IMG/VR virus record: IMGVR_UViG_3300025009_000407
Span: 1-20,389 of that record
Strand: one strand, 5' to 3'
Length of the DNA stretch: 20,389 bases
Origin: a virus
The notes under the pieces were generated by a model that ran no database searches, was not told the DNA's origin, and was given only the letters and a program-made list of their open reading frames with translations. Made by a program: the position numbers and the translations under genes. Shown one piece after another: positions 11,162 through 13,714 of the stretch (its first letter is position 1; each line of letters opens with the position of its first letter).

Positions 11162-11725
11162 ATGTTGCTTAGAAAACTTTGTAAAAATTGTGGAAACGCA
11201 TACAAGTCCAAATTTGATTCTCAAATATTTTGTAGTAATATATGTAAACAACTTTATTTAAGAAAAAAAGCATTGCAAAAAGTTTGTGTTATATGTGGAA
11301 CTAAATTCAATAAAAAGACACAAAATCAAAAATGGTGTAGTATTGAATGTAAAAATATTTATAATGTAGAAAATAATAAAGTCGGAGAATTTATTATATT
11401 AAATCGAGATAATTTTACTTGTATTTATTGTGGAAGATCGCCAGCAGAAGACGCCATAAAATTACACATAGACCATGTCGTACCAATAAGCAAAGGAGGA
11501 AAAAGTAATGCATCAAATTTAGTTACAAGTTGTCAGAGTTGTAACTTAGAAAAATCTGATAAAATTATTAATTCTGAAAAAATACTTGAAGAAATAAAAC
11601 TAAGAAATAAAAATAATAATATATCAAATGAACAATTATTCAAAATTAGGGAGACTAAACGCAGAATAGATAATCTATTCACAAACATAAACAAAACGCC
11701 GCAAAAGCCAGTAAATCGCTGTTAG
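11162..11725 (+). CDS. HNH endonuclease with two N-terminal zinc fingers
   Basis: A 187-residue protein in three parts. First come two zinc fingers: CKNC...CSNIC (about residues 7-28) and CVIC...CSIEC (about 42-63). Then the HNH nuclease (about 80-132): NRDNFTCIYCGRSP, LHIDHVVPISKGGKSNASNL, SCQSCNLEKSDK, with Asp104-His105 and Asn119 as active-site residues and CxxC pairs holding the structural zinc. The basic helical tail probably contacts DNA. AGAGGT lies 4-5 nt before the ATG. The gene is visibly richer in A and T than its neighbours and has its own promoter and leader, as expected for a free-standing homing-type endonuclease gained independently. No intron splice sites or interrupted exon are visible around it. 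Confidence 0.85.
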   Translation: MLLRKLCKNCGNAYKSKFDSQIFCSNICKQLYLRKKALQKVCVICGTKFNKKTQNQKWCSIECKNIYNVENNKVGEFIILNRDNFTCIYCGRSPAEDAIKLHIDHVVPISKGGKSNASNLVTSCQSCNLEKSDKIINSEKILEEIKLRNKNNNISNEQLFKIRETKRRIDNLFTNINKTPQKPVNRC

Positions 11726-12255
11726 ACGAATAAAAAACGAGCTTATTGTAGCATTCTTCTACATCCCACAATTTAATCACCACCGCTGAATAAATTGTAC
11801 ACAAATCACAAACGTGTTCCGTGATAACCTACACAGAACACGAAGGAATAATGTGGGAGTTTCACACCTTTTCCTTTTCAGAGTGAATAAACGAAAACAA
11901 ATTTCCTTGATAAACGGAAATTACCATTATGCACTTTGGACGGGTTCTATTGTACAGTTTGGCAATCTGGTTGCATTATATTATCAATTATGATAAGTTA
12001 CCTTCTTACAGACAGGATAAAAATACTATGTAATCGTTCCGAAAATAAGACGGGTTCGCTGTCCTATACAGTTTTGTATAGTTTGTACATTCGTTTTAAC
12101 GCATAAGTGTTATTTAATGGATATTAAAAACACCAATACCTATTCAGATAATAACAATTATAAATAATACTTATGGCTTTGTGTTATGGAGATACCCATT
12201 ATAGACATAATATGTAGTGTTGGGTTTACAGATAGCACAACACTATAAGATTATC
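11726..12255. other. 530-bp AT-rich gap, dense inverted repeats, no protein gene
   Basis: No credible ORF. Notable inverted repeats: CATAAGTGTTATTTA (12102-12116) with TAAATAATACTTATG (12160-12174), 15 pairs with one G-U in plus sense; CTATACA-GTTT-TGTATAG (12064-12081); CGTGTTC (11813-11819) with GAACACG (11836-11842), extending to 11 pairs in minus sense; AATTTCC (11900-11906) with GGAAATT (11916-11922); ACAATTTA (11768-11775) with TAAATTGT (11791-11798); TTATCA-ATTA-TGATAA (11981-11996); TAGTGTT (12215-12221) with AACACTA (12239-12245). Wobble pairs favour plus for some and minus for others, so the sense strand is unclear. It may be a 3' structured part of the HNH transcript, part of a leftward RNA, or AT-rich chance pairing. 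Confidence 0.5.
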
Positions 12256-12259
12256 CTAT

Positions 12260-12555
12260 ATAAAACAAAATCAGCCCCGAACCACTACTGGATGAACCCA
12301 GGTCATAACGCGGTATCAGGACTGATTTTACGCATACCCTTTCGGGTAGCACTCAACCACCGAAGCGATTGAGGGGGTAGGTGTGTCAGGATTTGGCCTT
12401 TGACGACTTTTTCACCTGATTTGTATGCTTGTCGTAGCAACCCGATACCCACTACATTTCTATCATACACAAGTCACTGTATCGTAGTTTCCGGTACGTT
12501 CCTACCGTACTGCACACCAACACATCCTACGTCTCATTCGAGGTGTCAGACGTTC
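12260..12555 (-). ncRNA. candidate structured RNA 2, about 295 nt, leftward
   Basis: The strand is set by pairing. CTCAATCGC-TTCG-GTGGTTGAG (12373-12352) makes nine pairs closed by a UUCG loop, two of them G-U that become mismatches on the plus strand. TACCC-GAAA-GGGTA (12348-12335) has a GNRA loop only on the minus strand. Further helices: CGGTA/TACCG, CGTAG/CTACG, TGTATG/CATACA and the closing helix at 12329-12267. It begins behind the promoter core at 12562-12580 and ends in a terminator-like T stretch near 12260. I do not recognise the class. The phage setting recalls large ornate phage RNAs (GOLLD, ROOL), but no motif match is claimed. Confidence 0.6.
12261..12329 (-). terminator. terminator-like closing helix of RNA 2
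   Basis: In minus sense, AAAATCAGTCC (12329-12319) pairs with GGGCTGATTTT (12277-12267), 11 pairs with one U-G, enclosing a loop with a small CTGG/CCAG hairpin, then TTTTGTTTTATA. The loop of about 41 nt is long for an intrinsic terminator, so it may be both the structural end and a processing or termination site. Confidence 0.5.
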
Positions 12556-12561
12556 AAGAAT

Positions 12562-12580
12562 ATTATAGCATACTTGTCAA
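12562..12580 (-). promoter_or_regulatory. promoter core of RNA 2 (extended -10)
   Basis: On the minus strand, TTGACAAGTATGCTATAAT: TGC-TATAAT is a perfect extended -10 (TATAAT 12562-12567), and a TTGACA lies only 7 nt upstream (12575-12580). The same arrangement recurs at 12747-12765. Seven bases is far too short for a normal -35 spacing, so the TTGACA is either an operator or coincidence within a duplicated element. Confidence 0.55.
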
Positions 12581-12594
12581 TAGATTAATTGCAA

Positions 12595-12618
12595 CCGCCC
12601 CCGATGTTCTGGGAGCGG
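12595..12618 (-). terminator. GC-rich hairpin between the two RNAs
   Basis: In minus sense, CCGCTCCC (12618-12611), an 8-nt loop and GGGGGCGG (12602-12595): eight pairs, one a U-G wobble that would be a mismatch on the plus strand. It follows a T-rich stretch rather than preceding one, so it may be the 3' structure of RNA 1 rather than a classical terminator. Confidence 0.45.
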
Positions 12619-12621
12619 CGC

Positions 12622-12740
12622 AAATAAAAATAATAATTATCAACACTACCTAACCTTTTACGGCTTAACACTAACTTGACAATGGAAGTCTGTGTTATTT
12701 ATTTACTGGGGTTAGGCGCTATACGCCGTGCTGTCCATCT
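12622..12740 (-). ncRNA. candidate structured RNA 1, about 120 nt, with pseudoknot topology
   Basis: Minus sense: ACGGC (12729-12725) pairs with GCCGT (12664-12660). CCTAACC (12716-12710) pairs with GGTTAGG (12655-12649), extendable by a G-U. Between them sits hairpin TAACAC (12697-12692) with GTGTTA (12671-12666), extended by ACTT/AAGT. The order 1-2-hairpin-1'-2' is that of an H-type pseudoknot with an inserted hairpin. A T-rich run (12632-12622) follows. It starts just behind the promoter core at 12747-12765. No ORF and no known class recognised. Confidence 0.55.
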
Positions 12741-12746
12741 AAAATT

Positions 12747-12765
12747 ATTATAGCATAGTTGTCAA
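12747..12765 (-). promoter_or_regulatory. promoter core of RNA 1 (extended -10)
   Basis: On the minus strand, TTGACAACTATGCTATAAT, differing from the element at 12562-12580 at one base. TGC-TATAAT is a perfect extended -10 (12747-12752). A weak TTAAAC about 16 nt upstream may act as -35. Start of RNA is expected near 12740. Confidence 0.55.
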
Positions 12766-12777
12766 TAGGTTTAACCC

Positions 12778-12807
12778 AGAACGCCCGGGTTTTACGCCGA
12801 GCGTTCT
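12778..12807. terminator. possible terminator hairpin after the late operon
   Basis: AGAACGC (12778-12784) and GCGTTCT (12801-12807), seven perfect pairs with a 16-nt GC-rich loop, lie just beyond the stop of the last late gene. There is no clear T-run on the minus strand, so read-through into the RNA genes is possible. Confidence 0.35.
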
Positions 12808-12835
12808 TTCGGAGAGGAGATGAGAGGATGATAGC

Positions 12836-13714
12836 CTAATACCAGCATTCCTGAATTGATACGGTTGGTTGGTAGTCTTCGTAACCAATTGTCATCCATG
12901 CAGAACCAAGCGGTGACGGCGGTAGATTCTTTTGATGTTCCCAGTTCGTCCATTCGTCCGAGTTGTAATGGTTCTTGTAACCTGGTGTTCTGACATGATA
13001 TTGCAACTTCCTGACTACCCTGTTTTCACGGTTCAAGTATATTTGTGGAATCGGCATGACATACGCCTGATGATTATGCCCGTTATGAACCACATCAGCA
13101 TCGACGTAAACCGCCTGTCTATTGGTCTGAATTGCCCCACGCGTAACGGGTGAATTACCACCAGCCCCATGGTTATAATAATATACGATGCTGCCCTTAG
13201 GTGCCGGCTTCTTTTTGTTTTCAATATTACGTTGTAGCATGAACCGCACGAAGCCGTCATATCCACCTGTTTGTATTCTATGGACCTGATTTTGGGATAG
13301 CAGAAAAGCTAATCTATCAAGCAAATCTGTACCAGCGTTCTTACGGGTGGATAGTTCGTGGTTGCCATAACCAAGATATATGATACGGTCTGAATACGGC
13401 TTAAAAAATTCGTAGGCGTCTTCTACAATCGCATCGTAATATCTATCGGTTGCGTATTCAGGCCTGATTTCATCATAGCTTTTGCGTGGATCAAATCTAC
13501 CCTGCATAGCGTCTAATAAATCACCACAAATCAAAATACCAGCGTCATCTTTTATAGTTTCCTTTAAATCTTGTTCTAATCGTTTTCTATCGCAAAACAC
13601 ACTGTCATAATGTATATCTGACATCATAAAAAACTTTTGTTTATATCCGGCATAAGCGTCCGGTAGTTCACACACAATTACAGACCCCAATTTCTTTGTT
13701 GTGAAATTCATCAT
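12836..13714 (-). CDS. calcineurin-like metallophosphoesterase
   Basis: A 292-residue protein with all the hallmark motifs of the two-metal phosphoesterase fold in order: MSDIHYDS (DxH, about residue 32), ICGDLLDA (GDxxD, about 63), LGYGNHELS (GNHE, about 118), YYNHGAGG (about 181) and VVHNGHNHQAYV (GHxH, about 214). It would hydrolyse a phosphodiester or phosphomonoester; the substrate cannot be read from sequence. Phage versions occur in both DNA-processing and late regions. Here it is the last gene of the leftward late cluster. GGGAG sits so close to the ATG at 13714 that the adjacent ATG at 13711 may be preferred. The sequence is intact with no missing metal ligand. Confidence 0.88.
   Translation of the reverse strand: MMNFTTKKLGSVIVCELPDAYAGYKQKFFMMSDIHYDSVFCDRKRLEQDLKETIKDDAGILICGDLLDAMQGRFDPRKSYDEIRPEYATDRYYDAIVEDAYEFFKPYSDRIIYLGYGNHELSTRKNAGTDLLDRLAFLLSQNQVHRIQTGGYDGFVRFMLQRNIENKKKPAPKGSIVYYYNHGAGGNSPVTRGAIQTNRQAVYVDADVVHNGHNHQAYVMPIPQIYLNRENRVVRKLQYHVRTPGYKNHYNSDEWTNWEHQKNLPPSPLGSAWMTIGYEDYQPTVSIQECWY

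Follow-up and report, generated by a model that had tools for sequence, protein, structure and literature searches.

A predicted modular RNA gene with a tRNA-like domain between the late and early operons of a phage and its relatives

What does a phage keep in more than a kilobase that lies between its late and its early genes and holds no evident gene? Phage genes for noncoding RNAs are seldom annotated because pipelines seek proteins and tRNAs. The window analysed here, the whole stretch of 20,389 nucleotides, is a 20.4-kb phage fragment in which the late genes run leftward (tail, GH25 endolysin, and a metallophosphoesterase that ends at 12836) and the early genes run rightward, the last being an HNH endonuclease that ends at 11725. 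The initial annotation had remarked on 1.1 kb without genes, and the description holds: the 1,110 bases between the two ends (11726-12835) have no ORF longer than 62 aa wholly inside and no Rfam match at gathering score, below which only chance-like matches appear, and ARAGORN finds no tRNA in the window. That an RNA-gene locus occupies this place, where the late and early operons converge, is well supported.

Predicted transcripts in the gap

Two tandem leftward structured RNAs, each behind a promoter core, had been proposed for the right half of this gap. We refer to them as RNA-A and RNA-B; TLS1 and TLS2 are likewise names coined in this analysis, and L007, L010, L017, L033 and L034 are loci of related phages. 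The features, from right to left, are as follows.

12778-12807, minus strand: GC-rich hairpin AGAACGCUCGG..CCGGGCGUUCU after the last late gene (inverted repeat I12), probably the late-operon terminator
12747-12767, minus strand: promoter core P1, TATTGACAACTATGCTATAAT, upstream of RNA-A, of the form TATTGACA-N7-TATAAT
12621-12740, minus strand: RNA-A (tentative), based on the promoter repeat and a U-rich stretch at its end
12591-12621, minus strand: GC-rich hairpin GCGCCGCUCCC..GGGGGCGGUUGC, an element of the region upstream of P2
12562-12582, minus strand: promoter core P2, TATTGACAAGTATGCTATAAT, upstream of RNA-B, also TATTGACA-N7-TATAAT
12259-12555, minus strand: RNA-B (about 297 nt), beginning at a start predicted downstream of P2 and reaching the U-tract, based on module homologues and the minus-strand fold
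12522-12553, minus strand: 5' hairpin of RNA-B, with 3 compensatory pairs of 11 between the window and L010
12379-12520, minus strand: tRNA-like module TLS1, by homology to the second locus of the L010 phage and to L007
12352-12373, minus strand: UUCG hairpin, identical in L007, L017, L033 and L034 and varied in L010
12335-12348, minus strand: GAAA hairpin, its GNRA loop kept in relatives
12262-12329, minus strand: intrinsic terminator with a long loop, AAAAUCAGUCC..GGGGCUGAUUUUGUUUU, ending in GUUUU

Everything that had been described from the letters alone, namely the helices, both tetraloops (UUCG and GAAA), and the T-rich end, is present at these places and in the leftward sense. The leftward strand is likewise upheld, both by the folding of 12251-12562 against shuffles (z of -3.1 on the minus strand versus -0.8 on the plus strand) and by the wobble pairs, UUCG/GNRA loops, and oligo-U terminators, which fit one strand. 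Folding energy alone is weak evidence, because RNA-B without its terminator has a z of -1.1 and RNA-A without the hairpin at 12591-12621 (12622-12748) one of only -1.7; most of the excess folding energy of RNA-B is that of its terminator. It is the comparative evidence that carries the case, and here RNA-B is a clear member of a modular phage RNA family. The 21-nt core of its 5' hairpin (12527-12547) is identical in L010. The TLS1 module that follows combines acceptor-, D-arm-, and T-arm-like ends with a large central part and an interrupted T-loop; its first 27 nt are identical (27/27) to the second RNA locus of the L010 phage, with an E value of 8e-9, and its 3' end is also present in L007. 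The T-loop position carries an insertion that includes GUCGU, for which the hairpin loop ACGAC at 12426-12439 is, as judged by eye, a possible pairing partner; the T-arm is absent from the unconstrained minimum-energy fold of RNA-B. Farther downstream, GAAA, GUGA, and GAGA loops alternate on similar stems among the relatives. The terminator matches its counterparts in L007 and L010 at 97-99% identity, with different preceding sequence in each, and its stem is kept with other loops in L006, L007, L015, L033, and L034. RNA-B is thus very probably a real modular phage RNA gene with a host-type promoter and a terminator of its own, and its predicted product, a folded RNA of about 297 nt with a domain derived from or mimicking tRNA, is well supported by sequence comparison.

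The proposal of a second RNA stands only in part. Both promoter cores were found on the minus strand where they had been placed, within a 31-nt repeat that is 87% identical; the repeat scores 20, whereas 200 dinucleotide shuffles average 10 and reach 17 at most, and the duplication around the cores exceeds chance. The second core is real, but the RNA-A that it would serve has no homologue in the 16 searched phage records, and its folding is unremarkable once the hairpin is removed (with it, 12585-12747 has a z of -3.5 on the minus strand and -2.0 on the plus strand). Lacking a homologue and having an ordinary folding energy, RNA-A has much weaker evidence than RNA-B and may be a second RNA gene. 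The helix that had been assigned to it at 12591-12621 does exist as a hairpin, but its membership in RNA-A was not borne out: L006, L007, L010, and L033 carry this hairpin, where it directly follows the late genes or closely precedes a promoter, and lack RNA-A, so that it is probably not part of that RNA.

The spacing within the promoters is a separate observation. In the window and in L006, L007, and L010, TTGACA stands just 7 bases before TATAAT, one helical turn short, whereas the usual 17-18 bases separate the two in the other relatives. The spacers of the N7 cores in L006, L007, and L010 differ from those in the window (three differing spacer types), and such a core is also found ahead of a ferredoxin-like ORF on a viral contig that is unrelated (L002:4141-4163).

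Modules and covariation among related phages

Relatives were retrieved through the Gp37-like tail protein, unlike the metallophosphoesterase, whose peptide patterns retrieved none, and RNA patterns added L030/L032, L033, and L034. The distinct loci with RNA modules number eight (L006, L007, L010, L015, L017, L032, L033, and L034), the hits of L005 duplicating those of L006, and the hits of L008 and L009 those of L010. At the DNA level, the window has no match in phage or plasmid collections, and the RNAs of two relatives have none in the phage collection; neither protein nor RNA patterns found a relative in bacterial genomes. L035 is an inverted repeat of L034 sequence around AAAAGGACTATGACGTCATAGTCCTTTT (near 2880), which probably arose as an artefact when the L034 phage was assembled. 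RNA genes of the leftward type lie downstream of the end of the late genes in seven of the eight loci; in L032, the exception, a rightward operon follows the modules. In L027, whose tail protein is 55% identical, the gap is absent and the facing genes are 137 bases apart. Across at least nine related phages, then, the locus carries predicted folded RNAs, mostly outside Rfam.

The conserved blocks of these loci are highly identical, with changed order and partners. A typical gene begins with a hairpin, followed by a promoter (TTGACA-N17/18-TATAAT-like or TTGACA-N7-TATAAT) and a 5' module, which is either TLS2 or the hairpin shared by the window and L010. Next comes, optionally, either the tRNA-like TLS1 or a real tRNA-Thr, then the UUCG hairpin and a second hairpin that usually has a GNRA loop, and the gene closes with an optional GUAA hairpin with pseudoknot and an internal-loop hairpin before the intrinsic terminator. 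The simplest complete version is that of L034. The tRNA-Thr, with anticodon TGT, lies between promoter and terminator in L006, L007, and L010, and TLS1 occurs in five loci with common odd features, adjoining an intact tRNA-Thr in L007.

Covariation was counted as pairs changed on both sides, from few sequences whose relatedness can inflate shuffle tests. TLS2, in 7 sequences, has 10 such cells, with 0/500 shuffles as high; 94% of its cells are paired, a percentage on which the counted structures favour themselves, having been drawn from the same sequences. The 3 type-b sequences of TLS2, with the GACG-loop hairpin, have 7 both-side changes and the module of GUAA hairpin and pseudoknot (3 sequences) has 6, again with 0/500 shuffles as high in each case. 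The latter keeps 21/21 pairs; its pseudoknot pairs are invariant, and its covariation therefore comes from the other pairs. The internal-loop hairpin has 3 both-side changes (11/500 shuffles as high). In the 5' hairpin of the window and L010, the 3 both-side pairs (66/500 shuffles as high, two sequences) are suggestive only, and this one two-sequence hairpin is all the covariation of the window's own RNA, the strong counts belonging to modules that are absent from it. In the alignment of terminators the stem is conserved with one-side changes only and no both-side changes, and the tRNA-like modules, poorly aligned by MAFFT, were left out of the counts. Compensatory changes, the mark of a structured noncoding RNA, are thus found in the modules of the predicted phage family and are suggestive in the window itself.

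A covariance model of TLS2, run over whole phage records, brought up a further copy (E of 3e-5) at the second locus of the L010 phage, shortened and with its outer stem partly unpaired. The tRNA-like module about 60 nt downstream of this copy is the one that shares the 27 nt with RNA-B, and together these ties link the tRNA-like domain of RNA-B to the family through a locus outside the building of the model. Disrupted helices in relatives and a lack of covariation had been named as what would speak against the RNAs; as far as the relatives allow, the comparison left the proposal unrefuted. For RNA-B, the leftward structured RNA with the boundaries first drawn for it is supported by homologues, covariation of family modules, common hairpins, and conserved terminators.

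The same second locus (L044:1501-1740) places its short TLS2 and tRNA-like module directly upstream of a protein gene, which has a ribosome-binding-like site; there is no terminator between the RNA modules and the gene.

Comparison with known RNA families

The initial annotation had called for a search of Rfam that includes GOLLD, ROOL, and HEARO, all three of which are catalogued there. None has a gathering-score match in the window or appears among the matches up to E 10 in 11700-12850 and 12250-12600; nothing in Rfam matched in the window at that score, and most parts of the RNA have no counterpart among catalogued families. The matches of SNORD60 and others below threshold were rejected as chance, being eukaryotic or far below cut-off, and no Rfam antitoxin RNA was found in the window. 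Across these loci Rfam recognises just the tRNA-Thr and one DUF3800-VII RNA. The latter (RF02967) lies in L033 between TLS2 and TLS1 and scores 45.1 bits against a cut-off of 36.2. DUF3800 proteins have an RNase H-like fold and are reported with putative noncoding RNAs (PMC10910872). In other relatives the internal-loop hairpin has a similar CUAAU loop followed by GUAGGAUUC, as judged by eye, but the window has no RF02967 match, and no DUF3800 protein (PF12686) was found in 14 relatives and the window, where, many records being fragments, absence is not proof. For GGAGGAAAGTCC in L010 and L017, an identity as RNase P RNA was weighed but has no support from Rfam, and the segment is a covarying hairpin with a possible pseudoknot.

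With tRNA, RNA-B shares its acceptor-, D-, and T-arm-like elements, and true tRNA-Thr occupies the same slot in relatives, but the module of about 140 nt has no recognisable anticodon arm and its T-loop is interrupted. Neither ARAGORN nor RF00005 finds a tRNA cloverleaf with an anticodon arm in the window, and the TLS1 modules of relatives are not called as tRNA either. A tRNA with an intron was rejected for the window, ARAGORN with introns returning nothing, and ARAGORN finds no tmRNA there (tRNA-like domain plus tag reading frame).

Possible roles and neighbouring elements

The occurrence of a DUF3800-type RNA without its protein, together with the tRNA-like forms, the tRNA-Thr slot, the pseudoknots, and the exchange of modules, suggests RNA mimicry. 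RNA-B might accordingly act as a decoy or a substitute. Host enzymes recognise certain RNAs, for example a tRNA that a defence nuclease attacks or, for an RNA-bound toxin, its RNA antitoxin; the tRNA-like module of RNA-B would occupy such RNAs or take their place, as would pseudoknotted modules in related RNAs. Such activity would let the infection go on, and the rapid swapping of modules would track differences between host defences. There are precedents for parts of this scheme. The abiF RNA neutralises its toxin through binding (PMC12373285), and pseudo-ToxI of phage PhiTE, a repeat array of 36-nt pseudoknots that matches a known antitoxin, is likewise a phage-encoded folded RNA evolving by recombination (PMC3475682); for RNA-B, in contrast, no such host counterpart is known. 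As a whole, the explanation by a modular RNA gene acting as decoy or substitute has, in our estimate, somewhat less than an even chance. The narrower version, in which RNA-B would be a stable decoy that mimics tRNA and antitoxin against RNA-based host defences, is the function we favour, though it is tentative and somewhat unlikely, and we consider it unlikely that the locus as a whole is a cassette of mimic RNAs, in which promoter and terminator stay, tRNA, tRNA-like, DUF3800-type, and pseudoknot modules are exchanged, and each phage would have a different RNA counter-defence.

Another possibility, which we regard as rather unlikely, is a stable phage RNA that binds or encloses ribosomes or tRNAs in late infection or forms an RNA-only assembly. 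The tRNA region of phage T4 yields small stable non-tRNA RNAs (species 1 and 2) along with the phage tRNAs, a likeness drawn by description; the RNAs here differ in each having a promoter and a terminator to itself. In favour of this reading are the phage origin, the many helices and the pseudoknot, and the tRNA genes within the same predicted transcripts. GOLLD and ROOL, large structured phage RNAs whose function is unknown, occur near tRNA islands, the GOLLD linker sometimes holding tRNAs, and GOLLD rises during lysis (PMC12286853). The early suggestion that these two are the nearest concept is thereby partly sustained: the company of tRNA-Thr in L006, L007, and L010 (none in the window) fits, but the Rfam match is absent, RNA-B with about 297 nt is under half the length of the described members (659 nt or more; PMC12286853), and an inconstant set of modules fits a fixed architecture poorly. 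The tRNA-Thr of these three relatives, missing from the window, and the tRNA-like ends with an interrupted T-loop would equally suit a decaying phage tRNA locus, whose domain in the window would be a broken tRNA with insertions and whose transcript would be functionless. Against such decay, which we think quite unlikely, modules unrelated to tRNA covary, promoters, GNRA/UUCG hairpins, and terminators are kept, and TLS1 recurs with the same oddities, even beside an intact tRNA-Thr.

A reading without any RNA gene is very unlikely; in it the gap would be a control region acting as DNA, such as a replication origin, an operator, or a hot spot of recombination, its dyads would only resemble RNA helices, and its terminators would do no more than end convergent transcription. 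The left half (11726-12250) does have this character, being conserved, AT-rich, and dyad-rich, folding on both strands and better as the plus strand (z of -4.1), with conserved sequence of varying orientation to nearby genes; the account covers that half only, the wobble pairs, loops, terminators, and tRNA homologues of the right half fitting one strand. We take the left half for a DNA site separate from the RNA, perhaps a replication origin. AACCCGTCCAAAGTGCATA (11928-11946 in the window) and the AT-rich dyads near it are conserved in relatives in either orientation to nearby genes.

Were the decoy explanation to hold, these RNAs, linked as they are both with tRNA and with a DUF3800 RNA whose protein is missing, would connect an orphan RNA class with phage counter-defence, and the exchangeable cassette, if true, would correspond in RNA to the anti-defence islands that phages have for proteins. 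If they are not decoys, RNA modules with measured covariation are still added to a poorly known class.

The edges of the locus have features of their own. The metallophosphoesterase that forms the last late gene (12836-13714 in the window) is of a single family in the window and in L015 and L017; its equivalent in L006, L007, and L010 is of another that differs greatly, with about 21% identity, so that a gene has been swapped where the RNA locus begins. The HNH endonuclease gene (11162-11725) adjoins the locus in the window, and L017 has another HNH-like ORF inside it (L017:10846-11244), judged by a zinc-finger-like start alone. In L015, the minus strand of 11266-11327 gives a sub-threshold match to the type II hammerhead ribozyme (31.3 bits against a cut-off of 37, E of 0.023); its CUGAUGA and GAAAC core elements are intact, and it falls within that relative's version of the intergenic locus, in antisense orientation to the RNA genes.
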